From Segetibacter aerophilus (GTDB lineage: Bacteria > Bacteroidota > Bacteroidia > Chitinophagales > Chitinophagaceae): a stretch of 45,783 bases of DNA. Position numbers and translations under genes: made by a program. The stretch lies in NCBI RefSeq assembly GCF_007991655.1, contig NZ_BJYT01000033.1, forward strand, positions 1 through 45,783. Reading direction: 5' to 3'. Below the pieces are notes generated by a model. It worked only from the letters and a program-made list of their open reading frames with translations, had not been told where the DNA came from and did no database searches. Position 1 is the first letter of the stretch. Every line of letters begins with the position of its first letter. Shown one piece after another: positions 17,637-43,895 of this stretch.

Positions 17637-18494
17637 CTAAATTTTTTCTAAGTACTTTTTAGCCCTTAAATCATTTGGAGATATTTTAAGTACGGAAGCA
17701 AAAAAACATTTTGCCTTTTCATCATTTCCGTCAGCAAGTTCGAGTAAGCCCCTTTCGGTAATCACTTTTACATTATGTGGGTTTATTAAAAGTATTCTAT
17801 CAAATTCTTTTTTTGCTTTTTCTATGTTCTGTTGTGAAAGATATACCAGTGCAAGATGATAACGGGATGCTTCATCATCGGGAGCAATTGCAAGCGCACG
17901 GAAGAATGCCTTTTCAGCAACTCCAAAATTTTGTCTCATTAACTCCATAATACCGAGTTGACTCCAGGCAAAAGCATTGTTGGCATCATGTTCAATAGCC
18001 CGGTGCAAGCACGCTACCGCCTCATTAGCTTTTTTCAAACCGGTTTTTACAAGCGCCAGCTGTATCCAGTATTTTACCTGGTCCGGTTTTAAGGCAAGTG
18101 CTTTTTCCCAACACTGTTCTGCAGCCTGGAAATCTTGTTGTAGCATGGCTACGGTCGCGAGACTCTCCCAGGCGAAAACGTTTTGGAGATTATGCTCGAT
18201 CGCTTTGCTAATGCATGCTACTCCTTCTTCGCCCTTCCCTTCCTGCACGAGTATATTACCAAGGTTAAGCCAGGCGCTGGAACTCTCGGCGTTTATTTTC
18301 AACGATTTCCTCGCGGTCTTTTCTGCTTCGGAAAGTTTCCCTTTTTGCTGTAGTACGAAAGCAAGGTTATTGTACGCAGATGAATCCCTGGCATCAGCCT
18401 TAACTGCTTCCCTGAATTTTTTCTCTGCCGCGTCCAGGTCGCCGGTAAGGAACGTTTGCACACCGGCATTGTTGATCGTATCATTTAACTGCAT
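17637..18494 (-). CDS. TPR-repeat protein closing the eCIS operon
   Basis: A 285-aa protein made of about eight tetratricopeptide repeats (phrases such as S-A-Y-N-N-L-A-F-V-L-Q-Q-K-G-K-L and S-A-W-L-N-L-G-N-I-L-V-Q-E-G-K-G). The start chosen is the ATG at 18494, before Q-L-N-D-T-I; an earlier in-frame start at 18551 would overlap the DUF4157 gene by 41 bases and adds residues with no repeat likeness. TPR proteins are scaffolds for protein contacts. As last gene of the operon, directly after the candidate payload, it could be a chaperone, loading factor or assembly scaffold. That role is inference; no signal peptide is visible. Confidence 0.85.
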   Translation of the reverse strand: MQLNDTINNAGVQTFLTGDLDAAEKKFREAVKADARDSSAYNNLAFVLQQKGKLSEAEKTARKSLKINAESSSAWLNLGNILVQEGKGEEGVACISKAIEHNLQNVFAWESLATVAMLQQDFQAAEQCWEKALALKPDQVKYWIQLALVKTGLKKANEAVACLHRAIEHDANNAFAWSQLGIMELMRQNFGVAEKAFFRALAIAPDDEASRYHLALVYLSQQNIEKAKKEFDRILLINPHNVKVITERGLLELADGNDEKAKCFFASVLKISPNDLRAKKYLEKI

Positions 18495-18510
18495 AAGAAA
18501 AGTTTTAAGA

Positions 18511-21500
18511 TTAACCGAATAATTGTTGGCCGATACCTTTCGCAAAATCACTTACGCTAATGTCCGGTGCTTCAAACTTTACATCGTCAAGTGATATTTC
18601 AAAAGGTTTATTTTCTTCATAATGTACGGGGAATTTTACGCCGAACTTCATAGCAGGACCCCATTCAAACGCATACAGATTCCACTTCCACTCTTTGCTG
18701 AATTCTGTCACCCAAAGATCAAGCACCGCCTCCACGTAGGCATTTACATCAAACTTGAATTTGGGTTGAACGGATAACGAAGCTTCTGCATCAAGCTTGA
18801 ATCCAGTGGCAGGCGTCCAGTTCACGACAACACCTGCCTCTGCAGCGCCTTCTATACCCAGTGCACCACCGAGTTCGATGCCTCCTGATACACGTGCAAT
18901 ACCAACACTCAATCCAATACCTGCACGAACATAGACACGAAGACCTGCCTCGGCCGGTACCTTGAATTTTGCATTACCGGTGATGGACATACTTTCTTCC
19001 TCTGCCGGGTTGTATTTGACTTCTACCGCTGCATCCGTTAATTGACCGGGACCAATACTTGCATAGGCTTCTGCGCCGCCCCCAATTGTTGCAACAAGTC
19101 CGATACTCCTGCTCCCAACCGGAATAGCAAACAATGGAATCTCAATGGTAGGCGCTTTAAATATCTCTTTCTTGATCTCCTTCTTTTCGAAAATATTTAC
19201 TGCTGCTGGAATGCCAATCTTGCCTACTACTTCGATATTTCCATCGGGCTTGAAAGTAACGCCGGCCGTGCCCTGCAGCCAATCCGTTATCTTCAAAGTC
19301 AATGACCCGCCCCCGAATACTTTGAGATCTTCACCTGGTCCTCCCGACGGTTTGCCGTCAGCGCCTACCGCCTGGTTAGTAACACCTACGGTAGCGGTAC
19401 CCGCCAGCCTGCCTTTTGTATAACCAACAGTGCCGCTTACTGTAAATACGCCATCAACATAGCTTACGGTGAGGTCTGAATCAATACCGGGAATATTAGG
19501 TTTCGCATTGCCGGACATCGAAACTTTTGTTTCCTCACCGGCAGTTTCAACCTTTGCTGTTACCTTACCGCTTTTAATGAACTTGTGCTTGAAATTTGCT
19601 TCCCCCTCGATCAGCAACTGATCATTGCCGTAAGTAACGCTCATCTTACCGTCTTCAAGTCCGGGAATACCAAACTTCGCGGAACCGTCTGCCTTGAAAA
19701 TTCTGTCAGCGTAATTCACATTGATCTCTGCGCTATCAATGCCCTTAATTTTTCCCTTTGGTATTTTGATATTGCCATTAACATCCCATTTATCCTCTCC
19801 TCCTTCCGTATGCTCGTAGCTGGCTTTTACATTTGCTTTCACACCACCAAACAGTTTCTCATCAAACTCAAAATTTCCCATGAGCTTGAACACACCGTTA
19901 GTATCGCCTGTAGCGCTGATCTCGCCCTTTCCAACCTTATTGATTTCAAAATTGATTTTGCCTGTTACACCAATTGCAGCGGTACCACCATTGGCAAAAA
20001 CAATCAACGAGGCATCAGTTACTTTTAAGGGAGGTGGAATGCCTTTTATATTACCGGAGCTAAAGGTCCTGCTCAGTATTACATTCTTACCTTCAATAGA
20101 AAAATCGATGTAAAGGTCTTTGATGATTTCAACGGAAGGTTGTATTCTTCCTTTTGCCACTATACCTACATCCGGAAGCATCTCTGCTGAATCCAGTTCA
20201 ATAGGGCTCATCCCTTTTACCTTAAGATTGCTGAGTACAGTTTCAAGATTTCCGCCACCCCGGGTCCTTCGCTTCATGAAACCACCAAAGTCAACCCCAT
20301 CCATTGTATATATGTTGATCGAAATATTATCAAGGGGTTCGAAAATCTTGGGATTGGGGTTGAACTTGCCGGTAATCGTTCCTGCAACCGCCCCGCTTTT
20401 GGACAGATTTATATTTCCTTCAAAGCCGGGCATGCGCTTCAACGAATCATTACGTAACATCGCACCGCCTCCTTCCGAAGTATAAGCAATAGGATTATCT
20501 TCTTTGCCGGCAACCTGTTCTATTTCCCGGTCGGTCATTTTTTCGAAATTCTTCAGGTGCTGTCCCTTTTGGACCTGGTCGAATGACCAATATCCGTCAG
20601 CACCACTTCCCTTGCTGCTCTTTTCTGTTTTTCCTGTAAAAGATACTTTCTCAAATTTTATCTCGTAGTCCTTCATCGCATCATCAACGCTGAAGGCTTG
20701 ATTTGTTTTGGTGATGAAATTTTGAACAGCCTTTTCAACATTGTTGCTGATCTGCGAGCCAGAACTGCGATTGCCTGAAAAATTAAGCAGCTCCATATTA
20801 TCAATCGTGTTCTCACCACCAACTAATTGCAGCTCGAGGATGTGGTCTACATCGAATGCTGAAACTTCTCCGGATGCATTCCATAATGGCACCTTGCTGT
20901 TTTCTATCAACGTCTCCTCTTTACCGAATAACTTGATCCCCTTCCACTTCAAAAAATATACATCTGGTAAGGACGGCTTTTTACCTGCTTTAGTCTTTAA
21001 GCCATCAACAGCGGTCTTAACACCTGCAGCAATACCCGGATCTTTTTTCCAAATCTCTGTTTGTGCTTTGCCACCAGTGGCTGCCTTGCGGCTGTAATTT
21101 TTTTTGCGCGTAGCGCTGGTGCCAAACTTTCCTGTATTGCGCGATTTGAATTGCGGTACTTCGATGGACGGAATAACGATCTGGCTTCCGACGATCTTAC
21201 CTGCATCTGTTGCTCCTCCACCATCCGACGGCGTAGGATTACGGTAAGCAATAGCCCGCAGTACCTGGTCTTTTTGTTGCACAACGTGGGTTAATTCATG
21301 CGCAATCAGCTCCCTGCCACGGTCACTTTCAGGATCGTATTTCCCTGTATTGAAAAATATATCGTTCCCAATAGCAAACGCCTGTGCATTTAGTGAAGCG
21401 CAAAGCTCTGCAGATTCTTTATCATCATGGATTTTTACTTCAGAGAAATCATATTTAAAGGATTGCTCCATGTCAGCCTTCAGCTGGTCATTCAGTGGGC

Positions 21501-22425
21501 GACCAGAACCTTTCTTGGCATTGATCTTTTCTTCAATGGCCTGCAATTTCGCCTCATCGTTTTCAGGATCGTCCTGTTGTTTGGTGTCTCCTTCTTTACC
21601 ACCTTCCTTACGACCTAAAGCAGTGGCTAGCGGTTTCTCCTGCGGCTTTTGATGGATAACCGGAGCTGGTACGTCCTTGCGATGTAGAGATTTTGGTTTT
21701 GCACTTTTATCTTTTTCTTGGTCTACAGGCTTCTTATCCTTATTGTTTTCCTCCTTCTTCGCTACTTTATCTTGCTTATCATCGTCTTTTTTTGCAGCTT
21801 TCTTTTCTTCATTTTCATTTCCCTTTTTCTTCGCTTCCTGCTTCTTATCGTCTTTCTTTGCTAGTTTATCTTTTTTACCATCGTCTTGCTTGGCAACTTT
21901 TTTTTCTTCTTTCTGGCTACTCGCTTTCTTCGCTTCCTGCTTCTTATCGTCTTTCTTTGCTAGTTTATCTTTTTTACCATCGTCTTGCTTAGCAACTTTT
22001 TTTTCTTCTTTCTCGCTACTCGCTTTCTTCGCTTCCTGTTTCTTGTCGTCTTTCTTTGTTAGCTTATCCTGCTTATCGTCATCTTTTTTAGCAGCCTTCT
22101 TTTCCTCCTTCCGGCTTCCCATTTTCTGAACTTCCTTATTGTCCTTATCTTCCTTCGTCTTTAACCCTTCTTTTTTCGGCTCTACATTCGGTTCTGTCAA
22201 AGGTTCCTTCGCCGCATTGTCTTTTTTGTCATCTGCTGTTTTCGTATGAGCTCGCTTCTCCTTTTGTTCGTCCACTACCCTACTTGCAACGGTGTCCGCT
22301 TCTTTCTCCGCCGGGTCTGAGGCCTTGCTGACTGTGAGCTTCGCCTGCACTGGCAAAGCATCTGCCATACTGAACGGTGTTGCTTTACTGGCCAACGAAG
22401 AATTTGTTTTTCCAATGAAGCCCAT
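18511..22425 (-). CDS. Giant DUF4157 (eCIS core domain) protein, candidate payload
   Basis: A 1304-aa protein. Residues ~50-300 are extremely rich in Lys, Asp, Glu and Ala, with 33-residue tandem repeats at ~100-225. Residues ~310-385 form the DUF4157 domain ending in a metalloprotease-like H-E-L-T-H (H376-E377, H380). DUF4157 is a hallmark of proteins tied to eCIS loci, often toxins or loading-associated proteins. Around 520-565 lies an HNH-like block: D527-H528, E-L-Q-L-V-G-G, then spaced Asn residues and N-R-S-S-G-S. The rest (~660-1300) is a chain of beta-strand repeats (alternating V-x-x-x-G-x-V patterns) ending in E-W-K-W-N-L-Y-A-F-E-W-G. No signal peptide. It sits between the ATPase and TPR genes and is the best payload candidate here. 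A structural role is possible given the long beta region. Confidence 0.8.
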   Translation of the reverse strand: MGFIGKTNSSLASKATPFSMADALPVQAKLTVSKASDPAEKEADTVASRVVDEQKEKRAHTKTADDKKDNAAKEPLTEPNVEPKKEGLKTKEDKDNKEVQKMGSRKEEKKAAKKDDDKQDKLTKKDDKKQEAKKASSEKEEKKVAKQDDGKKDKLAKKDDKKQEAKKASSQKEEKKVAKQDDGKKDKLAKKDDKKQEAKKKGNENEEKKAAKKDDDKQDKVAKKEENNKDKKPVDQEKDKSAKPKSLHRKDVPAPVIHQKPQEKPLATALGRKEGGKEGDTKQQDDPENDEAKLQAIEEKINAKKGSGRPLNDQLKADMEQSFKYDFSEVKIHDDKESAELCASLNAQAFAIGNDIFFNTGKYDPESDRGRELIAHELTHVVQQKDQVLRAIAYRNPTPSDGGGATDAGKIVGSQIVIPSIEVPQFKSRNTGKFGTSATRKKNYSRKAATGGKAQTEIWKKDPGIAAGVKTAVDGLKTKAGKKPSLPDVYFLKWKGIKLFGKEETLIENSKVPLWNASGEVSAFDVDHILELQLVGGENTIDNMELLNFSGNRSSGSQISNNVEKAVQNFITKTNQAFSVDDAMKDYEIKFEKVSFTGKTEKSSKGSGADGYWSFDQVQKGQHLKNFEKMTDREIEQVAGKEDNPIAYTSEGGGAMLRNDSLKRMPGFEGNINLSKSGAVAGTITGKFNPNPKIFEPLDNISINIYTMDGVDFGGFMKRRTRGGGNLETVLSNLKVKGMSPIELDSAEMLPDVGIVAKGRIQPSVEIIKDLYIDFSIEGKNVILSRTFSSGNIKGIPPPLKVTDASLIVFANGGTAAIGVTGKINFEINKVGKGEISATGDTNGVFKLMGNFEFDEKLFGGVKANVKASYEHTEGGEDKWDVNGNIKIPKGKIKGIDSAEINVNYADRIFKADGSAKFGIPGLEDGKMSVTYGNDQLLIEGEANFKHKFIKSGKVTAKVETAGEETKVSMSGNAKPNIPGIDSDLTVSYVDGVFTVSGTVGYTKGRLAGTATVGVTNQAVGADGKPSGGPGEDLKVFGGGSLTLKITDWLQGTAGVTFKPDGNIEVVGKIGIPAAVNIFEKKEIKKEIFKAPTIEIPLFAIPVGSRSIGLVATIGGGAEAYASIGPGQLTDAAVEVKYNPAEEESMSITGNAKFKVPAEAGLRVYVRAGIGLSVGIARVSGGIELGGALGIEGAAEAGVVVNWTPATGFKLDAEASLSVQPKFKFDVNAYVEAVLDLWVTEFSKEWKWNLYAFEWGPAMKFGVKFPVHYEENKPFEISLDDVKFEAPDISVSDFAKGIGQQLFG
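21745..22120 (-). repeat. 99-bp tandem repeats coding a Lys/Asp/Glu-rich segment
   Basis: Nearly identical units begin at 21841 and 21940, with more diverged units on both sides (22039 onward and before 21841), giving about 3.8 units. Each encodes 33 residues of the type K-K-D-D-K-K-Q-E-A-K-K-A-S-S followed by K-E-E-K-K-V-A-K-Q-D-D. The period is a multiple of three, so gain or loss of units keeps the frame. It is not a CRISPR: the units are contiguous and coding. Confidence 0.88.
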
Positions 22426-22443
22426 AGCATTGCTTTTAGACAG

Positions 22444-23811
22444 TTATGAATTCAGATTATCACCGGACAGACTTGACTCCTTGGATAATTCTTTTTTGAT
22501 GCCCATAATCACATTTTCACTGGTGATAATATTGTTTCCCTGCTTCAATGCCATCACTGAAGCGTACCGGACAACGTTCATGATATTCGCTCCTGTGAGT
22601 GAAAAGTTCTCAGACAACGCTTGCAGGTTAACGTCATTAGCGAAGGACGTACTCGGCGAAAAACTTTGTCGCCATAAACGCTGACGCTGTTCTTTGTCAG
22701 GTAGCGGGAAATGGGTAATGAGTTGAAACCGGCGGAGAAATGCCTTGTCGATATTGCCCTTAAGGTTGGTGGCAAGAATGGCAAGCCCCTCATATTCTTC
22801 CATCCTCATCAAGAGGTACGAGACTTCCTGGTTTGCAAATCGATCGTTGGCGTTTTGGATATTCGAACGTTTGCCGAATAGTGCATCGGCTTCGTCAAAA
22901 AATAAAATCCATTTTTTGTTTGCTGCTGCGTCAAATATCCTTGATAAATTCTTTTCCGTTTCGCCGATGTATTTCGAGATCACCATTGACAGGTCGATCC
23001 GATAAACCGGCAGATTGTTTTGCTTCCCGATCAACGCCGCAGCCAAAGACTTGCCAGTACCGGAGGGGCCATAAAAGAGACATTTGAAACCATCTGGGAT
23101 TTTGTTGCCGAACCCCCATTTACCAAGTAATTTCTCTTTATGGTCCAACCATGTTCGTATTTCCTCCAATTGCTGCTCCGTCTCACTAGCCAGCACCATC
23201 TCATCATATTTGAAATTGGTGGTGAGGAGCCTGGCGGGAAAATTTGAATTGAATAAGGGTTGATACGTCGTTGCAGTAGTAAGCATATGCAACACATCTT
23301 TCGAAATAAGAATGACGCCACTAGTTTCCGGCTCATAAGCAGATATCTCCTGCAGCTTCAAGATGTTTTTTGTATAGAACTTATGTTGCGGAGAAAACAG
23401 CAGGCTGCATTCCAATCTTTTTTGAAGATCACTACCGGCAATGAGAAAGAAAACGGTTTCACCTGTTGGAATTAAACCGCCATGTGACGAACCCTTGATA
23501 CCACCGATATCGGGGAGCTGCCTGTTATCTATCCCAAACTTTGCCAACGAACGCTCGACAAGGTGAGGGTCCACATAAGGTAACAAGGAGACCAGCAGGA
23601 TCATCCGCTCTGTGTCGTTCAATTCGAAGGATCTGATAAACTGCTGATAAACGGAAACCGGTGAGTGAAATGCGGGCGCCGGCATTTTCGCAAATGGCAT
23701 TTCTTTTTTCTTTTGAACAAAAGACGTAAGCCGGCTTTCCAGCACCGCAGTCAGCCAATGAAGATCTTTTTGAAGATGTGCGGCGTTATGTATCAGGTTC
23801 TTGTTTGCCAT
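22444..23811 (-). CDS. AAA+ ATPase of the eCIS (Afp15-like)
   Basis: A 455-aa ATPase (464 if the ATG at 23838 is used). The Walker A motif G-P-S-G-T-G-K-S is at residues 257-264 and the Walker B motif with D315-E316 in L-F-F-D-E-A-D-A-L-F-G-K-R (numbering from 23838). An arginine-finger-like F-L-R-R-F lies after. The N-terminal ~200 residues are the helical domain typical of eCIS ATPases. Members of this family are conserved in Afp/PVC/MAC clusters and are thought to help assembly or cargo handling rather than sheath recycling. I prefer the ATG at 23811 because it overlaps the tape-measure gene by 19 rather than 46 bases; both are possible. Confidence 0.9.
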   Translation of the reverse strand: MANKNLIHNAAHLQKDLHWLTAVLESRLTSFVQKKKEMPFAKMPAPAFHSPVSVYQQFIRSFELNDTERMILLVSLLPYVDPHLVERSLAKFGIDNRQLPDIGGIKGSSHGGLIPTGETVFFLIAGSDLQKRLECSLLFSPQHKFYTKNILKLQEISAYEPETSGVILISKDVLHMLTTATTYQPLFNSNFPARLLTTNFKYDEMVLASETEQQLEEIRTWLDHKEKLLGKWGFGNKIPDGFKCLFYGPSGTGKSLAAALIGKQNNLPVYRIDLSMVISKYIGETEKNLSRIFDAAANKKWILFFDEADALFGKRSNIQNANDRFANQEVSYLLMRMEEYEGLAILATNLKGNIDKAFLRRFQLITHFPLPDKEQRQRLWRQSFSPSTSFANDVNLQALSENFSLTGANIMNVVRYASVMALKQGNNIITSENVIMGIKKELSKESSLSGDNLNS

Positions 23812-25325
23812 TGCGTATACAGGGGTTTTGACATCCATGGAAATTTAATTATACTGAAGCTCCATGGCAGGCTGTCGATGAGTATATCGTATCCTTTAGA
23901 ATCCGTGTGCAACTGCCATCCCCCGTCGTCATTTATCAGCCTACCCTGCCGCTGCAGGAAAGTGGTTCGGAAACCATCGATGCTTGTATTTTTAAGTATG
24001 TTCCAATGATGAATAATTGTTTGAAGAAACTCTACGCCAGCTTCTTTTTCGTGTGGTGCTAATGATAGCCTAACATCGCATATTTCGAATGGATGAACCC
24101 CAGCGAATATTTTATTTAATAGTAACCCATATTCGTGAACCTTGTGTTCACCCCATATCAGCCAGTCAAGCCATAATATGATCTTATGTCTTGCTGATTC
24201 GTCCGCCGTCGCCTGACCCTTTACCCAGCCTAATTGATGAAAATATCTTTGTAGCAGTGCTGCATTTAATAATACCAAACCGCCGTTGTCGATGAAATAC
24301 CGATTCTGGTCATAGTCCTCTGCATCAGCAAGACTGCTTTCATCATCATAACTTGCTTCACTTTTATTAGCTGGCAACTCCGGGGAACTGATGCTATCAT
24401 TCCCGGCTTTTTCAAACTTCTGTCCGCGAGGCAATTCTTTTGCAATCACTAATCGCGATGCCTGTTCCAGTGCAGATCTATACAGCTCCCGCCGAGAAGG
24501 GGAAGTTTCTGCTGAGATGACAATCTCGATCTGTCCAACTATTGCTGCCAGCGTTTGTGCATCATATTTAATAAGAACAATTAATAATTGCTTAATGAAT
24601 ACCATATCATAATCCTTCCCTGTTTTGATGGACTCATGTAAGCTTGTCAGCATCGTGACTGCGAGCTCCGTTTCGGAGATTCTTATACGCGCTGCATTTA
24701 ATTGATTTTTTATTGTTACGACTATCTCTTCCACCGCAACCGTTTGATCTCTGCCCACTATCTTTTCCCCAAGTAAACGAATAGTGGGAAAACTAAAAGC
24801 GGTTGCCAAGCGTTCAACAACATGCCGCCGGGACAGTTGTAACAGGATGGATCTTTTGAACGGCACTATTTCGTTTTCTAATATTTCCACCAGCAGCACC
24901 TCCATGTCGGGTTTCCCATAAATATTCCATGGTAGGGATCCGGTGACCAGGTAGTGGAGAAGTGTCTCAATTCCTGATCCGATATTTTCAGGCGCCAACG
25001 CGTGTTGCGGTTGTTCAGTAAACGCCTGCCGTTTTTCTACGCCATTTATATGCGCCAGCTTATCCGCAAGCACTTCTTCCAGTTGGTTCCTGATCAGTTC
25101 TTCAATACTACCAAAATTGTCAGCCTCTAAATGACCAAGATCCAGTTCGAGTTGATCGATCCGTATCTTCCACGGAACATAATCATATTGAGCGAACACT
25201 TGTGTTAACAACGATTCTGTTTTAATGCTGCTTATCTTATCGGTAAACTCATGGGCAGCTTCTTCAGTTGAGGCGTAAGCATCGAAGCATACTGTCTGAA
25301 TGATATGATTATTATGCGGAGGCAT
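23793..25325 (-). CDS. Contractile injection system tape measure protein (Afp14-like)
   Basis: A 510-aa protein. The N-terminus H-I-I-Q-T-V-C-F-D-A-Y-A-S, followed by I-R-I-D-Q-L-E-L-D-L-G-H-L near residues 56-68, is the signature of the CIS_TMP family. The rest is mainly helical, with Leu-rich segments and a central acidic stretch near 310-345. Tape measure proteins sit in the lumen of the tube and set particle length, so particle length should scale with this protein. The gene lies between the 1085-aa baseplate-associated gene (2 bases before) and the ATPase gene (overlapping), as in other eCIS clusters. Confidence 0.85.
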   Translation of the reverse strand: MPPHNNHIIQTVCFDAYASTEEAAHEFTDKISSIKTESLLTQVFAQYDYVPWKIRIDQLELDLGHLEADNFGSIEELIRNQLEEVLADKLAHINGVEKRQAFTEQPQHALAPENIGSGIETLLHYLVTGSLPWNIYGKPDMEVLLVEILENEIVPFKRSILLQLSRRHVVERLATAFSFPTIRLLGEKIVGRDQTVAVEEIVVTIKNQLNAARIRISETELAVTMLTSLHESIKTGKDYDMVFIKQLLIVLIKYDAQTLAAIVGQIEIVISAETSPSRRELYRSALEQASRLVIAKELPRGQKFEKAGNDSISSPELPANKSEASYDDESSLADAEDYDQNRYFIDNGGLVLLNAALLQRYFHQLGWVKGQATADESARHKIILWLDWLIWGEHKVHEYGLLLNKIFAGVHPFEICDVRLSLAPHEKEAGVEFLQTIIHHWNILKNTSIDGFRTTFLQRQGRLINDDGGWQLHTDSKGYDILIDSLPWSFSIIKFPWMSKPLYTQWQTRT

Positions 25326-25327
25326 GA

Positions 25328-31917: not shown

Positions 31918-31918
31918 A

Positions 31919-36093: not shown

Positions 36094-36165
36094 CGTTTAA
36101 GCATTTTATTCGCGATGTTCTTTCATCTGACCTGTCCAGTTGTTTCGCTCTTTTTCATTAATGTT

Positions 36166-36444
36166 TCAGTTAATCATTACCGTTGAACATCCAACCACCG
36201 CACTTGCGCCACAGGCACAAACATCCCCGACACGTATAGCTGGCTTGCCTCCGATCAGCACTGTCGTACTTCCCATTGTAAAAGGACTTGTTGTGGGTTG
36301 GTGACCCACGGGTGGCAAAGCGCATACATGCATGTCGCCTGCAACTGCCGCCGGCATACCGCCGATCATTACGGTTGCCATACCCGGCCCACTGATGATG
36401 CCTCCGTGATTAGTCGTATCTGTTACCCTTGCTGCTGCCGGCAT
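36166..36444 (-). CDS. PAAR-domain spike tip (Afp10-like)
   Basis: A 92-aa protein made of PAAR repeats: P-A-A-A-R-V-T-D, H-G-G-x-I-x-G-P-G, V-M-I-G-G-M-P-A-A-V-A-G-D, then H-V-C-A, H-Q-P, and C-A-C-G, which provide the zinc-binding His and Cys. It caps and sharpens the VgrG-like spike. It lies between the spike gene (10 bases upstream) and gp25. No C-terminal toxin extension is present, so the tip itself is not an effector. Confidence 0.93.
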   Translation of the reverse strand: MPAAARVTDTTNHGGIISGPGMATVMIGGMPAAVAGDMHVCALPPVGHQPTTSPFTMGSTTVLIGGKPAIRVGDVCACGASAVVGCSTVMIN

Positions 36445-36454
36445 GTAATACTAT

Positions 36455-38206
36455 TTAGTTGATCATAACTGATGATCCCTTTACTGTTGTTGAGCCACTG
36501 GATGAAATTTCGGCGGAGCTGCTTCCCTTTACTTTCGCAGTAGTACTGCCGCTTGCTTCCAGTTCTTTACCACTGATGCCTATCTTGCCAGAAGCAGCAT
36601 CAAGCGTCAGGTCCTTAATACTTTTTATAGTGATACCATCTTTACTCATCGTGATCTCATTGCCATGTTGATCCTTTAACGCTATCTGTTTTCCGTCTTC
36701 ATCCAGTTTTATACTGTTGCCCGCAGGCGTTGAGATCTCGATCGTTTTTTTCTCATCGTTGAACCAGATTGTCATTTTCTCTCTCGTTACAAATCCCTTT
36801 TCATGATTGGTATCCTTTGCCTGGATAACGGCCGGTTTAGCGGAGCTATTCAGCATACCCAATATCACAGCGTGGCGCGGATCATCGTTGATAAAACCGA
36901 GCACTACTTCATCACCTACTTCAGGTCTGAAAAAACTGCCGCGGCTATCACCGGCGTCCGGCAAAGCATGTCTTGCCCAAATGCCTTCTGCATCTTTATC
37001 TACCAAAGGCATCTTTACGAGTACACGATCCTCGCCTAACGGATCGTCCTCAAGTTGTGTAACCACGCCCGCCTGCAAACCATTCACACCCGGTAGCAAG
37101 CCTGCAGCTGGAAATGGATTCACATCGTGTTCTGTTATAAATAACTGTGATGATAATCCAAACTCAACATCCGTTAGCCAGTTGCCCTGGTTGATCTCAT
37201 GCCGGACAGCGGAGATAAAAGTCTTTCCGTTGAATCGTTCGCCAGCACCCTGGAGGTTGGCGATTACACCGCATTTTAGTTTATCGCTACCCTGGCATTT
37301 AGCACGTCCTCTAACTTTAGAAAGACTATGTTTCATCATCTGCGCATCAGCCCATGCTCTCAGCTCTGTTTCAGTAAGAGGCGCAGCATTCTTATAATCT
37401 ATAGCTGCATCGCCAGTTTTTGAAGCGAGGTCACTACTGCTTACATTTCCTTGTTGTTGGAACCCCGATGGTACCGTGCCCTCGGTTTCTACTGCTTCCT
37501 GTGTCGCGGGATCCCAGCCCATTGCTTTTACGGTATCAAACTGGTACCGCGCATCCATTTCAGCATCAAACTCCAGGAGGTTGTTTCCAAATTTCAATTC
37601 CATAACTGCGGTTGCGGCGAGATCGGGTTTGCTAAGTTTGAGTTTGCCATTGTCGGTGATCACCAGCATGCTGTTCGCTTCAGCACGACTGATCATGAAA
37701 TCCCAGTCTGTGCAATTGAATTGCACCATTTCTTTATGCTCCACCTTCGTATCTGTGGCATCAGCGTTTATAGAGTAGCGTTGTAGAATGGATGAGAAAA
37801 TATCACTGTCTTTCTGCTCGGTAAATATTTTGTTCTTCCTGGTCTTAGTTGCTTTCACAGCCGCATGCCTGCATTCTACAAGTAAGAAGGTTGACTTATT
37901 TTCTTTCAGCTTGACGGAATGTTTAATAACGATTCCTTTGAAAATTGTTTGGTTCTGGCCTTTGTAACCGGCAGCTATTTCTACAGCTGCTCCCGGCAAA
38001 AAATCCGGCTTATTGCTCAACGGAAAGTCTCCCTTTGACGCATCCCCATCCAGGAAAATAAATTTGGCATAAGAGAGTCGGTTCACAGCATGATATACCA
38101 TCATCGATACCATGTTGTATTCGGCAGGTATTGCTGCTCCATTCACTTTAACCTCGAAGGATGGTGAGGCACTCGCAGCATTATTGTTTTGATCGTTTCC
38201 TGGCAT
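36455..38206 (-). CDS. VgrG-like spike protein (Afp8-like)
   Basis: A 583-aa protein combining a gp27-like hub (residues ~1-330) with a gp5-like OB fold (~375-460; V-V-T-Q-L-E-D-D-P-L-G-E-D-R-V-L-V) and a C-terminal beta-helix spike made of short Gly/Ser/Lys repeats, ending T-V-K-G-S-S-V-M-I-N. It forms the trimeric central spike under the tube. The first ~15 residues are Asn/Ala-rich. No enzymatic extension follows the spike. It sits 3 bases after the LysM gene and 10 before PAAR. Confidence 0.92.
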   Translation of the reverse strand: MPGNDQNNNAASASPSFEVKVNGAAIPAEYNMVSMMVYHAVNRLSYAKFIFLDGDASKGDFPLSNKPDFLPGAAVEIAAGYKGQNQTIFKGIVIKHSVKLKENKSTFLLVECRHAAVKATKTRKNKIFTEQKDSDIFSSILQRYSINADATDTKVEHKEMVQFNCTDWDFMISRAEANSMLVITDNGKLKLSKPDLAATAVMELKFGNNLLEFDAEMDARYQFDTVKAMGWDPATQEAVETEGTVPSGFQQQGNVSSSDLASKTGDAAIDYKNAAPLTETELRAWADAQMMKHSLSKVRGRAKCQGSDKLKCGVIANLQGAGERFNGKTFISAVRHEINQGNWLTDVEFGLSSQLFITEHDVNPFPAAGLLPGVNGLQAGVVTQLEDDPLGEDRVLVKMPLVDKDAEGIWARHALPDAGDSRGSFFRPEVGDEVVLGFINDDPRHAVILGMLNSSAKPAVIQAKDTNHEKGFVTREKMTIWFNDEKKTIEISTPAGNSIKLDEDGKQIALKDQHGNEITMSKDGITIKSIKDLTLDAASGKIGISGKELEASGSTTAKVKGSSSAEISSSGSTTVKGSSVMIN

Positions 38207-38209
38207 GCA

Positions 38210-38893
38210 TTATTCGTTATTCAGCGGTGGAAAATAAAGTTGCTCACCTGTTCTTAGTTTTCTGAAGTTGATAAGCCGGTTGGCTTTTGCTACATCCAGG
38301 TAGTATTGGTTGCTTTCATAAATGCGTTGCGACAAGAGCGGTAATTTCTCTTTGTCTTTTACAACGCGGAAATGGGTGATGTCTGGTGATTGCGCTTTAT
38401 CTGCCAGAACTCTTTTCTCGTCATTCACAAAGCCAAGGAACTTCGCATTAATCCTCGCCCGCAGAGGCCGTCCATCGCTGCGAAACAGTGTAAACGAAAC
38501 ATCGGCGTCTTTCAATACACAATCAAATACCAGGTAACTCCATACCACGCGCAGGTAATTGTTCTTGTGCTTTGAACCGTCATACGAATAGGTATGTTTC
38601 AGAAATTCTTCTACTTTCTGATCAACAAATACATCATCTGTATTTTCTATGCCTGTACCATCAAGAAAAAATTCAAGACTGAGCTCCTGCTGTTTCATAT
38701 TCGAAAACTTCGGGGCGGGTGGAGAAGTGCCGGCAGCACCCTTCTTATCGTATTCAATCTCGTATTTAAGATTGTACTTGCTGGGATTGAACATGGCAGT
38801 GAACGTCGCATCCTTCTTTTGCGTAAACTTTTCATCGTCATATGCCTCGATGTATAGTTTCACCAACTGCCCTGACTTTGCCTGTGCAGACAT
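38210..38893 (-). CDS. LysM-containing tube-baseplate adaptor (Afp7-like)
   Basis: A 227-aa protein of the CIS tube/LysM family. The N-terminal 160 residues resemble the gp53/gp54-like adaptor (T-A-M-F-N-P-S-K-Y-N-L-K-Y-E near 29-42). The C-terminus is LysM-like: P-L-L-S-Q-R-I-Y-E-S-N-Q-Y-Y-L-D-V-A-K-A-N and T-G-E-Q-L-Y-F-P. In Afp/PVC this protein joins tube and spike inside the baseplate. Despite the name, the LysM fold here is structural rather than a peptidoglycan binder. Its ATG overlaps the DUF5908 stop (TAATG), so translation is coupled. Confidence 0.9.
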   Translation of the reverse strand: MSAQAKSGQLVKLYIEAYDDEKFTQKKDATFTAMFNPSKYNLKYEIEYDKKGAAGTSPPAPKFSNMKQQELSLEFFLDGTGIENTDDVFVDQKVEEFLKHTYSYDGSKHKNNYLRVVWSYLVFDCVLKDADVSFTLFRSDGRPLRARINAKFLGFVNDEKRVLADKAQSPDITHFRVVKDKEKLPLLSQRIYESNQYYLDVAKANRLINFRKLRTGEQLYFPPLNNE

Positions 38894-39063
38894 TAGCGTT
38901 CCTTTTTATCTTTTATAATTTCCATTACCTGTCCTACACATTCTTTAATGATTTCTTCCTTCGGCGCTGCTTCCTGGTCGTTAGCCGTTGAGTTGTTGCT
39001 ACCACCCTGGTTGGGGTTGCCTACGCTCGCACGGATAATCAATTCGCGGATCTCTATGGGCAT
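38893..39063 (-). CDS. DUF5908 small eCIS protein (Afp6 position)
   Basis: A 56-aa protein: P-I-E-I-R-E-L-I-I-R-A-S-V followed by an Asn/Gln/Ser-rich linker and an acidic helix. This start pattern is typical of DUF5908, a short family found in eCIS and phage-like tails between tube and LysM genes. I use the ATG at 39063; an in-frame start at 39189 would run back through the tube gene and has no likeness. It ends in a TAATG overlap with the LysM gene. Role unknown. Confidence 0.82.
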   Translation of the reverse strand: MPIEIRELIIRASVGNPNQGGSNNSTANDQEAAPKEEIIKECVGQVMEIIKDKKER

Positions 39064-39065
39064 GA

Positions 39066-39524
39066 TTAAACTTTTTTCTGTGTGTAATAATTGTAATTGA
39101 GTTCCAGTGTTTCGATAACGATAGCGTTGTCCTGGCCTTTGAAGTCGGAAGTTGCCCATTTCAGAGGCCAGCATTTGACAAACTCCCATGCTACTAAAGG
39201 ATTATGATCTGGATTAAGCAGCGTTACTGTAATATCAACCGGTTGAAAATCGAAATGGTCAATAGCATCCCTTGCCCAATCGATTATCTTCGAATCGGGT
39301 TTCATGCCACGTTTTAAAACAAGATTGGGATATTTAGTGCCTTTGGGAAAACGATAGACAAACCGGTTCTCACCACCTTCCGTAAAATCTTCCGTCGTCA
39401 TTTCTTTATTGAGACCGGAGACCTCCTGGAAATTGATTTCTGATTTCGCACGCTGATCACTAAACTTGAACTCCACCCTGAAATGAAAACTAACCGGCGG
39501 ATAATCAAATTTGCTTTCTTCCAT
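39066..39524 (-). CDS. Tail tube protein, second copy (Afp5-like)
   Basis: A 152-aa gp19-type tube protein: F-H-F-R-V-E-F, F-Q-E-V-S-G-L-N near 32-39, R-F-P-K-G-T-K-Y-P-N-L-V-L-K-R-G near 59-74, and L-N-P-D-H-N-P. Tube proteins stack as hexamers inside the sheath. It differs clearly from the tube protein just upstream. In Afp the second tube paralogue (Afp5) makes the first ring on the baseplate, and this one probably does the same. The gap to the upstream tube gene is 2 bases. Confidence 0.9.
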   Translation of the reverse strand: MEESKFDYPPVSFHFRVEFKFSDQRAKSEINFQEVSGLNKEMTTEDFTEGGENRFVYRFPKGTKYPNLVLKRGMKPDSKIIDWARDAIDHFDFQPVDITVTLLNPDHNPLVAWEFVKCWPLKWATSDFKGQDNAIVIETLELNYNYYTQKKV

Positions 39525-39526
39525 AA

Positions 39527-39961
39527 TTAGGTTGCTTCAATAGTAAATCCTTCATGCGCCAGTTCTACCGATTCAATCGCCACTTCGTTTCCGCTGGCTT
39601 TCATACCAGGTCCTTCGAGCTTGACAGGAAATGCCTGCTTTACTTTCCAGATGATAACAGGATTATGCTCTTCATTCAACAACTTGATGGTGATATCACG
39701 TCGCTCGATGGTATTCATCTTAACCGTATTAAGCCAGGAGAAGAATTCATTGTCACCGCCGAATATGCCCCGCTTGAGCGTGATGTTGGAGAACTTCTGG
39801 ATACCAGGCATTTTCGTCACGTGAAATTCAGGACTTGCCCCATCGCGGTACTCGATGGCCTGTATTTCATAGGTCAGCCCGGTTACTTCTGTGAAGCCGA
39901 CGTTGGATCCGCCCCAATCAACAAGAAAATGAAAAGCCGGTAATGGATATGTATTTGCCAT
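39527..39961 (-). CDS. Tail tube protein, main copy (Afp1-like)
   Basis: A 144-aa gp19-type tube protein: P-A-F-H-F-L-V-D-W, G-F-T-E-V-T-G-L-T-Y near 22-31, K-M-P-G-I-Q-K-F-S-N-I-T-L-K-R-G near 49-64, and L-N-E-E-H-N-P. It is directly downstream of the sheath gene, the place of the major tube protein that fills the length of the particle. It is the same size as Afp1. Confidence 0.92.
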   Translation of the reverse strand: MANTYPLPAFHFLVDWGGSNVGFTEVTGLTYEIQAIEYRDGASPEFHVTKMPGIQKFSNITLKRGIFGGDNEFFSWLNTVKMNTIERRDITIKLLNEEHNPVIIWKVKQAFPVKLEGPGMKASGNEVAIESVELAHEGFTIEAT

Positions 39962-40000
39962 TGTAATAAAGAATTAGTTGTTTAAGATTTTTGTTACAGG

Positions 40001-42196
40001 TCAGGATGTCTGTACTTTATGTGAGAACTCAAGTATGATAAATTCTGCCGGGCGTACTGCTGCCATACCGATCTTTACGATCATTCTTCCTTCAAGTATG
40101 TCTACAAACGTCATGGTCTTGTTAAGGCCGACTTCCACAAAAAAAGCTTCCTCTGGTTTGGCGCCCGCAAGTGCACCCTGTCTCCACAGGAGCGTGAGGT
40201 AGTTTTCGATCATGCTTTTCACCTTCACCCAGGTATTGGCATCGTTGGGTTCAAATACAGCCCAGAAAGTTGATTTTTTTACAGACTCTTCTACCATGTT
40301 GAAGAATCGGCGCACAGGTACATATCTCCACTCATTATCGTTGCCGGCAAGTGTTCTTGAACCCCATACCAGAACCCCCTTGCCGCTGAATGAGCGGATG
40401 GCGTTCACTGATTTACCAGCATCCACGTCGATGTTCAATCCGTCCTGTATGTTGTCTGTAATATTTACCAATACACCTTTGGCATAAGTAACGCTTACGT
40501 TGGCAGGGGCTTTCCATACACCTCTTTCGTTATCCACTCTTGCATATATACCTGCCATGGCGCCGGATGGAGGCAGAATGGTGAGATTATTGTTTACACC
40601 GTCAATGATGTTTTTGAATACCGGCCATATTCGCTTCAGTTCCTCTTCCGCAGCTTTTTCAAATGCGCTGCCAAATATTTCGATAGACGAAACAATGTTG
40701 TTGAAATAATTAAACAATACCTGCAGCTTCGGAAGCGCATCTTTCATATTAATAATCTGATCGGCCGCTGTAGCAGCAGCAGCGACAGTCAGTAAAGCAG
40801 TATTAACAGCGGCCAGATTCGCTAATGGCAAGTTATACGTTTGGAAAACCAGGGCACCAGCGGGAACCCCATCCCTGGCGGGAATTACGGGGGCGGTTGA
40901 AATAGCATTTAATCCAGCCTGGAGATTGGAGAAGGTGGCATCCCAACCTACAAGCTCAGTTATCTTAGCAAGGAAATCACCCACCGCGTTAGCAGGGAAT
41001 GCGGGTGGAGGTAAAGCAAACCCGATCGACGTCCAGGTATTTTCTACCATTCTTTGATTGCTCATGAAACCCACGCTGTCGAAACCGAAGTCGTCCAGCA
41101 ACACCGTAAGATTGTATATCTGGCGGATCAATTTCACCACTTCCAGTGCAGCAATATTTACATTAGCAACAATCGGGTTTGCCTCCGCAGCTGCGATGAG
41201 GCTGTTGACCGATTGTAGTAATTGCGCATAACCACCGGAGAGGGATGGCAGATTTTTAGTAGCACCTGCCGGAGTATATTCAACAAACTCCGGGTTAGCA
41301 ATAAGATTAGAATCGAGAATACTGGCAATTCGCGCGGCAATAAATTTATTATCGTTCACAAGTTCATCTAGTAGGATGATCTGGCTTTTGATGGCAAGTG
41401 TATCAGCCGCTGAAAGATTTTTAACCAGTGAACTCAGCACAACCGCTGTCGTTGTACCCGCGAGCACGATCTGGTCTTTTATATCGCGATAGTGGACGTC
41501 TTTTTTGATTCCAACCTTTATCCACGGCGTATATACAGCACCGTATTTCAGGTTCGCCATGCCAATATTTTCCCGGAACTCTTTAACCTTATTGGCATGC
41601 GCTGTCTTATCCTCAGCTTTTTGAATATCGAACACACCCACACGATCCATCAGGTCACCGCACTGTTGTAATGCCGCTTGTTGCAACGTATACATATCAC
41701 CAGCCATTGAAACCGCATCAGGGAAAACGATCATCGTTGGCTCATCTACTTCTTTCAATACTTCAAGTCCACCCAGCATGCCGGTAGCGGGCGCAATTCC
41801 CCCGATATCTACAGCTCCATTGTCTTTGTATTTATCCACGGCTATGATATAGCTATCACCACCTCCATTGGCAAAGAACATCTGCATGGAATCATATAAG
41901 AAATAAAGTTGTTTGTTGACCGCTTTAACCACCTGGTTGTTCCCATCAATTTCTATCCCGTTACCCGTTGCCTTATCAAAAATCAATTTCGGGCCGCTTC
42001 CAAAATATTGCACGAACTCAACCATCGAGCTAATCTTTTTATATTTCAGAAAAAGACTCTCGCCGTTGGTCTCTTCCGCTTTCTCGGTGTAACCGATAAA
42101 AGCAGGTATGGCGGTAGGAACCTGTGCTACCGACGGCGGAAATATGGAGACTTCGTTCACATATACCCCGGGCGTTTTAATTGATGAGACAACCAT
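40001..42196 (-). CDS. Contractile sheath protein with large insertion
   Basis: A 731-aa sheath. The ends match the family: T-P-G-V-Y-V-N-E near 8-15 and A-I-P-A-F-I-G-Y-T near 29-37 at the N-terminus, and F-E-P-N-D-A-N-T-W-V-K-V, Y-L-T-L-L-W-R-Q-G-A-L-A-G, and F-V-E-V-G-L-N near the C-terminus. Afp sheaths are about 350-450 aa. The surplus is an Ala/Leu-rich, mostly helical insertion at roughly residues 225-540, between Y-T-P-W-I-K-V and L-P-P-S-G-A-M-A-G-I-Y-A-R-V. It probably decorates the outer surface. This is the only sheath gene here, whereas Afp has three. The gene is followed 39 bases later by the main tube gene. Confidence 0.9.
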   Translation of the reverse strand: MVVSSIKTPGVYVNEVSIFPPSVAQVPTAIPAFIGYTEKAEETNGESLFLKYKKISSMVEFVQYFGSGPKLIFDKATGNGIEIDGNNQVVKAVNKQLYFLYDSMQMFFANGGGDSYIIAVDKYKDNGAVDIGGIAPATGMLGGLEVLKEVDEPTMIVFPDAVSMAGDMYTLQQAALQQCGDLMDRVGVFDIQKAEDKTAHANKVKEFRENIGMANLKYGAVYTPWIKVGIKKDVHYRDIKDQIVLAGTTTAVVLSSLVKNLSAADTLAIKSQIILLDELVNDNKFIAARIASILDSNLIANPEFVEYTPAGATKNLPSLSGGYAQLLQSVNSLIAAAEANPIVANVNIAALEVVKLIRQIYNLTVLLDDFGFDSVGFMSNQRMVENTWTSIGFALPPPAFPANAVGDFLAKITELVGWDATFSNLQAGLNAISTAPVIPARDGVPAGALVFQTYNLPLANLAAVNTALLTVAAAATAADQIINMKDALPKLQVLFNYFNNIVSSIEIFGSAFEKAAEEELKRIWPVFKNIIDGVNNNLTILPPSGAMAGIYARVDNERGVWKAPANVSVTYAKGVLVNITDNIQDGLNIDVDAGKSVNAIRSFSGKGVLVWGSRTLAGNDNEWRYVPVRRFFNMVEESVKKSTFWAVFEPNDANTWVKVKSMIENYLTLLWRQGALAGAKPEEAFFVEVGLNKTMTFVDILEGRMIVKIGMAAVRPAEFIILEFSHKVQTS

Positions 42197-42226
42197 ATGA
42201 TGACGTTTTATGTGGTGATTTAATGA

Positions 42227-43282
42227 TTATACGTTGACGACTATCTTGGTGATAATATTATTGAGTGCATCTTTTTGTACAGTGATGGAAGAAGGAAGGG
42301 GCATAGTATCGAGTACGGTAGTGGCAGGAACTTTCTGCAGCTGCAATTGCATAGGGCGTTGTGAATAGGTGAGCTTTACATTGGATTTGAATTGAACAAA
42401 ACCGTTCACATCATCAGCTACACCCACCACGGCGAAAGTTCGTAGTGGTTCCGGCGGTACAGGTACATGCGTAATCTTAAGCTGGCTTGCCAGGTACGGA
42501 GGGATTGCTTTCTTACGGATATGGACATCGAAAAACCAATCGGTCGCGCGGCTGGTGATATTGACAACATAGCGTTGAAACGGTGGGATACCAGTCCATG
42601 CCAAACCTGACTGGTAACTGATTTCTACAATAGCAAGTGTGTCGGTTGAATAATCTTCCGAACAATAGACCGCTTCATCAACATCACCGCCCGAAGTAAC
42701 ATGACGAAGGGTATAAGATCCATCTGTAGAATTTTTTAGATCAACGAACAGAGCTTCTTTCTTCCCAACAGGTTCTACAACTGTCCTGGCGCGAACGATG
42801 ATGGTCCGCAATACATTACCGGTGGCGTCCAAAACTTTCAACAAACCAGGTACGTTTTCCATTACCAGTTCGTGTTTGAATTGCATGGGTCGAAACAGCA
42901 CTGTCGCATTTAGAGGGCCGGTAAGAACATTGATATCCCCTGTGGTATTAAAGAAGGGATTCTTCAACAGGAATATCTTATCCCTTTCCCAATTATTGAC
43001 GTCGGCATAATACCAGAACTCCGGATTGGCGACCGTGACCTTGAACGTAAATTTTTCGACAACATTAACCGGGCGGAAAGGCGTAGCATCATTGGTGAAG
43101 GGACTGCATTCATAAATAAGAGACATTCCATTTATAGTTTTCTTCGACAGCATTTTAAACCGGCTCATCTGCTTCACACAATAGCAGGTAGGTACGATAA
43201 CAAAATCACCATGCGGCAGCATATCCACATAATAAGCTGTGGTAAAATCAATCGAGAAAAGGTGTTCGTAACGAAGTCTCAT
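42227..43282 (-). CDS. Unknown eCIS operon protein between cap and sheath genes
   Basis: A 351-aa protein I do not recognise. It has no signal peptide and no membrane segment. It looks beta-rich with alternating hydrophobic patterns (for example F-T-F-K-V-T-V-A-N-P-E-F-W-Y-Y and V-V-N-I-T-S-R-A-T-D-W-F-F-D-V). It lies 1 base after the DUF4255 gene and 30 bases before the sheath gene, so it is surely cotranscribed with structural genes. Position and beta content suggest a structural part, perhaps near the cap or on the particle surface, but that is inference. Confidence 0.75.
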   Translation of the reverse strand: MRLRYEHLFSIDFTTAYYVDMLPHGDFVIVPTCYCVKQMSRFKMLSKKTINGMSLIYECSPFTNDATPFRPVNVVEKFTFKVTVANPEFWYYADVNNWERDKIFLLKNPFFNTTGDINVLTGPLNATVLFRPMQFKHELVMENVPGLLKVLDATGNVLRTIIVRARTVVEPVGKKEALFVDLKNSTDGSYTLRHVTSGGDVDEAVYCSEDYSTDTLAIVEISYQSGLAWTGIPPFQRYVVNITSRATDWFFDVHIRKKAIPPYLASQLKITHVPVPPEPLRTFAVVGVADDVNGFVQFKSNVKLTYSQRPMQLQLQKVPATTVLDTMPLPSSITVQKDALNNIITKIVVNV

Positions 43283-43283
43283 A

Positions 43284-43895
43284 TTAGTTGACTACCTCAT
43301 CGGTTATAAGCTCTTTGATCAATGGAGTTTCCGGCGATACAACAGTCTCACGGAATGTTAACATCCTGCATTTGTATATAACCGATGGAAGATACTTCGC
43401 TCCCATGGTCGCCCAAAGATGGTTGAGTTGTTCGAACGTGAGACTGATCGGTTCGATGATCAATTTCTCTATCCCTGCGGCCATCAGTACGGGATAGTGT
43501 TTTTTTGAGAAAACATTTCTGTATTGGAAAAAGAAAACAACCTGGTCGAGTAAAATCAATGCCCGTTCATAGGCGCTTTGTGGTCCTGATGTTGTATCCG
43601 AGAACCCTGCGAATTGTATATAAAGATTCAATTTGATATCCGGGTTCTGTACATGCAACTTGTCATCGGGTGTCTTAAGATAAGGAAGTTGAGATTTGCC
43701 AACCGTCTCTTCTTCTGTATTCACGAGCGTCATAACTACAAAATCACCAGTCTTATTAAACAAATGATTTTCCTGGTCTACTATATTGGAGAGAACCACC
43801 GGATTTGCTAATGCGCCTACCATATTAAGGGGATCTTTCAATGTAATGAAGTTGTTTAATGCGAGTCTTAAGAAGGACAGGGATATATGTATCAT
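43284..43895 (-). CDS. DUF4255 tail terminator/cap protein (Afp16-like)
   Basis: A 203-aa protein with the DUF4255 pattern: I-H-I-S-L-S-F-L-R-L-A-L-N-N-F near 2-16, V-V-M-T-L-V-N-T-E-E-E near 52-62, L-N-L-Y-I-Q-F-A-G-F near 90-99, and A-L-I-L-L-D-Q-V-V-F-F-F-Q. Afp16, of this family, caps the far end of the tube and stops growth. It is the first structural gene of the operon; its start lies 334 bases from the LytTR gene, and this gap must hold the operon promoter. Confidence 0.88.
   Translation of the reverse strand: MIHISLSFLRLALNNFITLKDPLNMVGALANPVVLSNIVDQENHLFNKTGDFVVMTLVNTEEETVGKSQLPYLKTPDDKLHVQNPDIKLNLYIQFAGFSDTTSGPQSAYERALILLDQVVFFFQYRNVFSKKHYPVLMAAGIEKLIIEPISLTFEQLNHLWATMGAKYLPSVIYKCRMLTFRETVVSPETPLIKELITDEVVN

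Follow-up and report, generated by a model that had tools for sequence, protein, structure and literature searches.

An operon for an AlgoCIS-like extracellular contractile injection system in Segetibacter aerophilus, with a candidate DUF4157 cargo and a paired TPR gene

The window analysed here is a whole contig of 45,783 nucleotides (NZ_BJYT01000033.1; C33) from the 5.89-Mb draft genome of Segetibacter aerophilus, which is in 79 contigs. Its minus strand carries an unbroken leftward array of 17 genes at positions 17637–43895, as seen by open reading frame (ORF) listing, Pfam scans and a frame check. We read this array as a complete extracellular contractile injection system (eCIS) of the type represented by AlgoCIS and the Anabaena contractile injection system (CIS), together with a candidate cargo of 1304 amino acids (aa) that has an eCIS_core domain and would carry a toxic nuclease of the HNH type, and with a TPR protein that would act as its chaperone or loader. 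Taken as a whole, this reading seems to us very probable. A complete eCIS in one leftward operon at these coordinates had been proposed in a first-pass annotation, and the ORF listing, the Pfam and PDB matches and the frame check all bear it out. The sixteen genes counted there become 17, because the gene at 42227–43282, which encodes the cap adaptor, had been left out.

Pfam and PDB searches found a relative for every gene of the operon, and the sheath, tube, spike, baseplate, cap, tape measure and AAA ATPase genes all lie within the one cluster. Three domains that mark eCIS loci are present by Pfam (DUF4157/eCIS_core, Pvc16_N and CIS_tube). All 17 genes have ATG starts and no internal stop. 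For three of them (the Alg11-like, DUF5908 and TPR genes) the ORF drawn from the first possible start is too long, and because of in-frame ATGs and the orthologues we place their starts, probably, at 35689, 39063 and 18494, respectively; the first of these gives a protein of 1256 aa and a 4-bp overlap with the gp25 gene. With the adjusted starts, intergenic spacing within the operon ranges from -46 to +72 bp. Overlaps of 1 bp and of 4 bp do occur, as had been noted, but only two are of this size, so that the earlier "several" was a slight overstatement.

The operon begins with the cap (tail terminator) gene at 43284–43895, a counterpart of Alg16A/Afp16 (203 aa; Pvc16_N/DUF4255, PF14065, 3.6e-25), whose orthologues occupy the same place in two other genomes of the family, G021 and G042. 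The cap adaptor follows (42227–43282; 351 aa). As a single sequence it found nothing in NCBIfam, PADLOC, PHROGs or PDB, and one match in Pfam that is far under the cut-off (E = 0.064). A PDB search with a profile of five homologues, each encoded directly after a cap gene, did find All3326 (1.6e-18), the cap adaptor of AlgoCIS (4.2e-8) and SalCis16b (0.015), which makes the protein a counterpart of Alg16B/All3326. The sole sheath gene (40001–42196; 731 aa; sheath C-terminal domain, PF17482, 1.5e-14) is followed by two inner tube genes of the gp19 family, at 39527–39961 (144 aa; PF06841, 5.2e-48) and 39066–39524 (152 aa; PF06841, 2.5e-41); by gene order only, the second would be the tube initiator (Alg5-like). 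The DUF5908 gene at 38893–39063 (56 aa with the adjusted start; PF19265, 6.2e-21) belongs to the plug family, and its product is a candidate Alg6/Afp6 plug judging from its position, its size and the AlgoCIS paper rather than from a direct sequence match. Next come the tube-spike adaptor, a counterpart of Alg7/Afp7 (38210–38893; 227 aa; CIS_tube, PF19266, 2.6e-49), the VgrG-type (gp27-gp5) spike hub, a counterpart of Alg8 (36455–38206; 583 aa; Phage_base_V, PF04717, 3.2e-20), the PAAR spike tip, a counterpart of Alg10 (36166–36444; 92 aa; PF05488, 6.1e-20) and the gp25 baseplate wedge, a counterpart of Alg9 (35686–36093; 135 aa; PF04965, 1.1e-22). The tube-spike protein had been annotated as a LysM adaptor; the CIS_tube match keeps it an adaptor, and no LysM family was matched in its Pfam scan.

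For the two J-like proteins encoded after gp25 and the 1085-aa protein after them Pfam has no structural family; all three match baseplate or fibre proteins in the solved AlgoCIS and Anabaena CIS structures. The first J-like protein (31919–35689; about 1256 aa) is the counterpart of Alg11/All3317 (Alg11 chain, 1.9e-121) and has a spike-cage stretch, and the second (28597–31917; 1106 aa) is a baseplate wedge protein, the counterpart of Alg12/All3315 (All3315, 8.8e-125; Algo12, 2.4e-107). The 1085-aa protein (25328–28585), earlier described as a large baseplate-associated protein, is better read as a tail fibre of the Alg19/Cis19 type, with matches to All3314 (1.6e-34) and to the 1443-aa PKD protein of 9wt0 (3.9e-30). 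Near its C-terminus it has a carboxypeptidase-regulatory domain over the cut-off (CarboxypepD_reg, PF13620, 2e-9) and a Big_1 match below it (PF02369, 7.5e-6); carboxypeptidase-regulatory, PKD and Ig-like domains have been tied to one group of eCIS fibres, eBAP4, in a 2026 catalogue (PMC12923769). Between the fibre and cargo genes lie those for the tape measure (23793–25325; 510 aa), which matches the CIS_TMP profile over its full length (PF19268, 8.4e-85, profile positions 1–463 of 463), and for an AAA+ ATPase (22444–23838; 464 aa; PF00004, 4.3e-26), of the Pvc15/Afp15 type by its place. The cargo and TPR genes close the operon.

The hallmarks of AlgoCIS are its cap adaptor, plug and cage (PMC8894135). 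By sequence the particle encoded here is AlgoCIS-like, because a cap adaptor, a member of the DUF5908 plug family and a cage stretch are all present. The cage domain of Alg11 comprises residues 278–643 (PMC8894135). Residues 314–684 of the window protein, used as query, align to Alg11 107–492, and residues 762–1280 align to 535–1028, so that the whole cage domain is aligned with the window protein except for residues 493–534. The ranked scores of the sheath against solved structures place it in the same neighbourhood: AlgoCIS comes first (8.7e-126), followed by All3325 (6e-123), SalCis (7.6e-105), Pvc3 (1.3e-63) and Afp3 (2.9e-59). The first-pass annotation had taken the great length of several proteins to mean a particle much unlike Afp. 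That holds against Afp, but the size is not exotic, as AlgoCIS and the Anabaena CIS have equally large counterparts of about 900–1500 aa (Alg11, 1050 aa; All3317, 1231 aa; All3315, 1335 aa; All3314, 1476 aa). Because these systems already show the extra size, the large baseplate proteins are no sign of a new type of particle.

Could the array be something other than a released particle? A decayed prophage or R-type tailocin would share its sheath, tube and gp25 families, all of which are phage-tail families, and there is an integrase beside a tRNA gene in the window. The NCBIfam call on the spike hub also points away from an eCIS, because it names a type VI secretion system (T6SS) VgrG (TIGR01646 vgr_GE, 240 bits against a cut-off of 121.8); the family is common to T6SS and eCIS. 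We regard a prophage or tailocin as extremely improbable: Pvc16_N, CIS_tube, CIS_TMP, DUF5908 and eCIS_core are all present, the operon is intact and is kept in other genomes, and a Pfam scan of 28 window proteins (the 17 of the operon, a LytTR protein and 10 encoded to the left) found no head, portal or terminase family. Nor did any of these 28 match a T6SS membrane complex or a phage head gene, which agrees with the first-pass annotation over that part of the genome; the scan did not extend to smaller ORFs of the left flank or to other parts of the genome. Coverage points the same way, as the sheath is covered over 26–34% of its length in the 10 phage records listed and none of the 688 matching records reaches 80%. 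A different possibility is that the particle is not released and works attached to a membrane inside the cell, like the T6SSiv of Amoebophilus or the thylakoid-anchored CIS. Those systems have the same cage or large baseplate proteins, and the baseplate proteins of the window score about equally against the Anabaena CIS and AlgoCIS. In Anabaena, however, anchoring has been sought in an extension of Cis12 and in Cis13 (All3316) with its predicted transmembrane segment (PMC8894136), and in the window there is no gene at the all3316 place, because the Alg11- and Alg12-like genes are 1 bp apart. None of the 17 proteins has a strong hydrophobic stretch either: no 19-residue segment has a mean Kyte-Doolittle hydropathy of 1.8 or more (the highest, 1.79, is in the fibre), and for that reason we see no clear membrane anchor. 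We therefore think the membrane-attached alternative unlikely.

The operon is the single occurrence of CIS_TMP in its own genome. A second eCIS was considered at C34:8331, where an eCIS_core match is weak (23.2 bits, above the cut-off), and was rejected: the frame is of 110 aa with an HExxH motif and its neighbours do not look eCIS-like by eye. Upstream of the operon, a scan for sigma-70 promoters returned 12 sites where 8.1 are expected, and the Bacteroidota-type promoter pattern one loose site; on these numbers we do not claim a promoter.

The penultimate gene of the operon (18511–22425, minus strand) encodes the 1304-aa protein with the eCIS_core (DUF4157) domain (PF13699, 6.2e-30). In AlgoCIS, the DUF4157 proteins Cgo1 and Cgo2 fill the tube (PMC8894135), and for this reason we think it more likely that the window protein is cargo, by analogy, than that it is a part of the particle, as had been supposed; the same paper reports that inhibition by Cgo1 is independent of its metalloprotease motifs. 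Its N-terminal part is charged and contains 33-aa repeats (99-nt units at 21730–22224); then come the eCIS_core domain at residues 310–387 with an HExxH motif at 376, an HNH-type motif at 527–552, and a long C-terminal half. The motif, (D/E)-H...N...N, follows eCIS_core and comprises D527, H528, N543 and N552; it is internal, not C-terminal. A pattern of (D)H...N...N is the catalytic pattern of HNH nucleases, and an HNH-type nuclease in the cargo is, on sequence grounds, likely. All 14 loci read (the window, L013, L085, L087, L090–L095 and L112–L115) retain the His and both Asn residues; they amount to fewer than 14 independent cases since the aligned stretches of L112 and L113 are identical. 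In an 11-member alignment the D, the H and both N are invariant; it leaves out L092, L093, L095 and L113 and takes in the C-terminus of a 2247-aa frame from genome G065. The Pfam HNH family (PF01844) matches 10 of these 11 members, weakly, with E-values up to 0.1. The 2247-aa frame itself (L096:9289–16032) has a start that resembles a signal peptide by eye and an HNH-type motif in its last ~70 residues, and looks like a polymorphic toxin; it ends in the same motif as the cargo and is otherwise unrelated to it.

Directly downstream of the cargo gene, the last gene of the operon (17637–18494, minus strand) encodes the TPR protein (285 aa; TPR_2, 2.4e-34). A related TPR gene stands directly downstream of the cargo gene, on the same strand, in all eight close relatives (L013, G021, G042, G009, G600, G475, G399 and G557), which we count as about six independent cases because G600 and G557 are of one genus and G475 and G399 of another. 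At eight other cargo loci (the distant L091–L095 and the other eCIS loci L098–L100) no TPR relative was found in the stretches read at E = 1e-3, a search that a very divergent TPR gene could escape. The pairing, eight of eight against none of eight, therefore marks the TPR protein as a partner specific to this cargo. TPR repeats are a usual chaperone fold, and we infer that the protein is a dedicated chaperone or loader of the cargo, immunity being a less likely function. We do not claim that the cargo–TPR pair is unpublished.

Several observations weigh against a toxic nuclease in the cargo. The HNH match in the window protein reaches 20.9 bits (16.6 for the whole protein) against a Pfam cut-off of 21.4, NCBIfam finds no family in the cargo, and the HNH profile has no significant match in PDB, where HNH proteins appear at E = 0.36–1.1 behind an unrelated AAA-domain protein. 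Both structure models are poor (pLDDT 54.7 for the HNH region, and 32.7 for the cargo from residue 388 onward, the latter from a two-sequence alignment), and neither shows a clear beta-beta-alpha unit. Two relatives, G170 and G191, carry E in place of the D that precedes the HNH His, and have ~950–1080 extra residues after the part they share with the window protein. The motif is also constant, not swapped, among close cargos, and because of this constancy and of the G170 and G191 extensions the HNH region may be a processing or scaffold part instead of a toxin.

This leads to an alternative in which the HNH-like domain is structural or self-processing and the effector activity, on membranes for example, lies in the C-terminal half. 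In its favour, all the close relatives read have kept the motif, whereas effector domains often vary, and cargo residues 893–1285 recur in the cargos of G006 and G167, which lack the HNH part. In those two proteins, however, the shared part stands nearer to eCIS_core and is followed by ~510 other residues, so that it lies between the two like a linker; its recurrence suggests a module in common use. In the window cargo the second half seems rich in beta strands, both by eye and in a model that is too poor to rely on. The same HNH motif is, moreover, at the extreme C-terminus, the usual place of a toxin domain, in the unrelated 2247-aa frame. We hold an effector in the C-terminal half to be doubtful, with an appreciable chance of being right. 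A rather unlikely alternative for the partner gene is that the TPR protein gives immunity to a nuclease cargo whose targets would be other bacteria. Its gene is directly downstream of the HNH-type cargo gene, and the relatives found all go with the close cargo group; against this stand the chaperone fold usual for TPR repeats, the lack of a match to any immunity family in Pfam or NCBIfam, and NCBIfam matches to type III secretion chaperones, which stand among those to many other TPR families and, like them, do not reach the cut-off.

If we keep to the HNH nuclease and the TPR loader, the system would work as follows. By analogy with characterised systems, the particle would assemble in the cytoplasm, the AAA ATPase would help to load the cargo, and lysis of the cell would free the particle; the fibre would then bind the target, and contraction of the sheath would drive the tube and its cargo into it. 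Within the cargo, the charged N-terminal part could be the loading signal, the HNH-type domain the toxic nuclease, and the long C-terminal half a delivery or linker module that other cargos also have, with the TPR protein serving as dedicated chaperone or loader.

The operon is a well-populated kind of locus. G021 and G042 have the same 17 genes in the same order, with 32–89% identity by gene over the stretches aligned (the G021 tape measure aligned only across residues 333–509). L013, a stretch of a Parafilimonas metagenome-assembled genome (JAFBAF010000162.1; Chitinophagaceae), begins inside the fibre gene and has the five genes through TPR, including a full-length relative of the cargo whose best segment is 66% identical. 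The eCIS of G009 is more distant, and its cargo relative has 37% identity. CIS_TMP is found in 55 of the 244 genomes of the family that were sampled (54 above the cut-off), and in three of 10 genomes of the genus. The cargo was matched in 53 of the 244, mostly over the eCIS_core domain only; its residues 481–904 were found in six of 395 genomes of the phylum, namely its own, G021 and four of another family. Among plasmids, neither the 76 records that match the cargo nor the 41 that match the Alg12-like protein include one with 80% coverage, and no relative of the cargo was found in viral contigs, whether it was searched as a single sequence or as an alignment. A genome of the same genus, G098 (L097, L098), has a different eCIS in another arrangement, with a tape-measure frame of ~1095 residues.

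The surroundings of the operon, like the cap adaptor, had been missed in the first-pass annotation, and they are those of a mobile element. To the left, on the plus strand, a tRNA-Ser (TGA) gene (15475–15560, found by ARAGORN) that may be the attachment side of an island is followed by a tyrosine integrase gene (15813–17030; PF00589, 1.1e-13; PF13102, 7.2e-16; PF17293, 1.9e-13). The operon is bracketed by two remnants of relaxase 3' ends in the same direction, both on the minus strand. The left one (17242–17495) is decayed and includes following sequence; it forms a direct repeat with 45460–45715 (88–90%), and within it 17343–17438 matches the C-terminal 32 residues of a relaxase in contig C28 of the same genome at 72% identity, with an internal stop. 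The right one, also with following sequence, occupies 45460–45783, where it is cut by the contig end; its similarity is to the same C28 relaxase, 45561–45782 being 86% identical to that protein's last 74 residues. The relaxase in C28 is a full one of the same family (PF03432, 7.3e-33). Because the tRNA-Ser integrase and the relaxase remnants flank the operon, we suggest that it was acquired laterally; a mobile origin is supported, and the ends of the island are unproven. The G+C content is 44.0% in the operon, 40.8% to its left, 36.6% in the integrase region and 31.9% to its right.

The tRNA-Ser site looks like an integration hot spot in the genus, because related integrases follow the same tRNA, with other genes behind them, in two of four other genomes read (G172, 78% identity; G223, 52%); there is none after it in G246 and G098. 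G021 and G042 showed no related integrase in the parts that were read. No second copy of the 23-nt tRNA 3' end occurs in the genome with up to two mismatches. The last bases of the tRNA recur as an exact 15-nt copy at C13:416–430 (0.011 expected for that 15-mer), and exact matches of 15–16 nt to a 273-nt query number four, with 2.8 expected at equal base use. The terminator after the tRNA is also present in G246, which has no integrase there. The C13 genes give no clear match to an empty site, and an aldo/keto reductase gene 13.5 kb further in adjoins the tRNA in G246 and G172. We do not claim C13:416–430 as an attachment site, given the terminator shared with G246 and the lack of a clear empty-site match. 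Integration of an eCIS between identical tRNA genes has been reported before (PMC8213781), and we found no paper that combines eCIS, horizontal gene transfer, integrative elements and tRNA.

A lone LytTR DNA-binding protein (44230–44823, minus strand; PF04397, 5.5e-6) is encoded to the right of the operon, upstream of the cap gene, as a possible regulator. G009 has a stretch with 66% identity to it across 108 residues in the same place, and none was found in G021 or G042, so that this role is not upheld. Further left in the window, a piece of ~140 bp (17073–17212) is 81–82% identical to two places in contig C2, in genes with DNA polymerase III alpha domains; C2 has a full DNA polymerase III alpha gene and then a second, partial-looking copy of 467 aa. 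The gene at 11962–13623 encodes a thioredoxin-reductase-like FAD protein with a fused receiver domain and adjoins one for a histidine kinase with a cyclic-nucleotide-binding domain (13864–15267), and an imperfect 46-nt inverted repeat (78%; 1087–1132 and 4351–4396) rich in TTTTGAGTTT-like units surrounds a kinase and regulator pair.

A wider proposal can be made, tentatively and with more doubt than belief: that the 3' end of the operon is an eCIS effector module of its own in at least two Bacteroidota families, consisting of a DUF4157 cargo with an internal HNH nuclease and a long delivery half and of an obligate TPR loading chaperone, and that the whole eCIS moves in relaxase-bearing islands associated with tRNA-Ser. 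The locus adds a complete and intact AlgoCIS-type particle operon in the Chitinophagaceae, with a candidate cargo and partner gene. What DUF4157 does, and what most of the proteins injected by eCIS are, count as open questions in the literature (PMC11297309, PMC8213781), and the consistent pairing of cargo and TPR genes offers a simple handle on loading. The operon is a sound case of a known type of eCIS, and its effector module is of modest interest.

Among known systems, AlgoCIS of Algoriphagus machipongonensis (clade Ib; PDB 7ADZ/7AEB/7AEF; PMC8894135) shares with the window the cap and cap adaptor, the single long sheath, DUF5908, the cage-bearing Alg11, Alg12, the Alg19-type fibre and the DUF4157 cargo. 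It differs in having two DUF4157 cargos, whereas there is one here, with an HNH-type domain and a TPR partner; sequence similarity is moderate, the fibre domains in the window are Big_1 and CarboxypepD_reg, and the Alg11 counterpart has ~180–205 extra N-terminal residues, depending on the start. The thylakoid-anchored CIS of Anabaena (all3313–all3327; PDB 7B5H/7B5I; PMC8894136) gives the best scores for the Alg12-like protein, the fibre and the cap adaptor and the second-best for the Alg11-like protein and the sheath, but the window has neither a gene at the all3316/cis13 place nor a clear membrane-spanning stretch. Afp and PVC (clade Ia) have the same basic gene classes, but they have three sheath proteins (by the PDB list) instead of one, shorter baseplate proteins and lower scores. 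The nearest parallel to the cargo is with fusions of DUF4157 to toxins, in which the toxin domain is in one protein with DUF4157; such fusions are called frequent, and one DUF4157–DNase fusion is mentioned (PMC8213781; PMC11297309). In those fusions the toxin is C-terminal, sometimes past a very long linker, whereas the HNH region in the window follows eCIS_core and has a long part after it.

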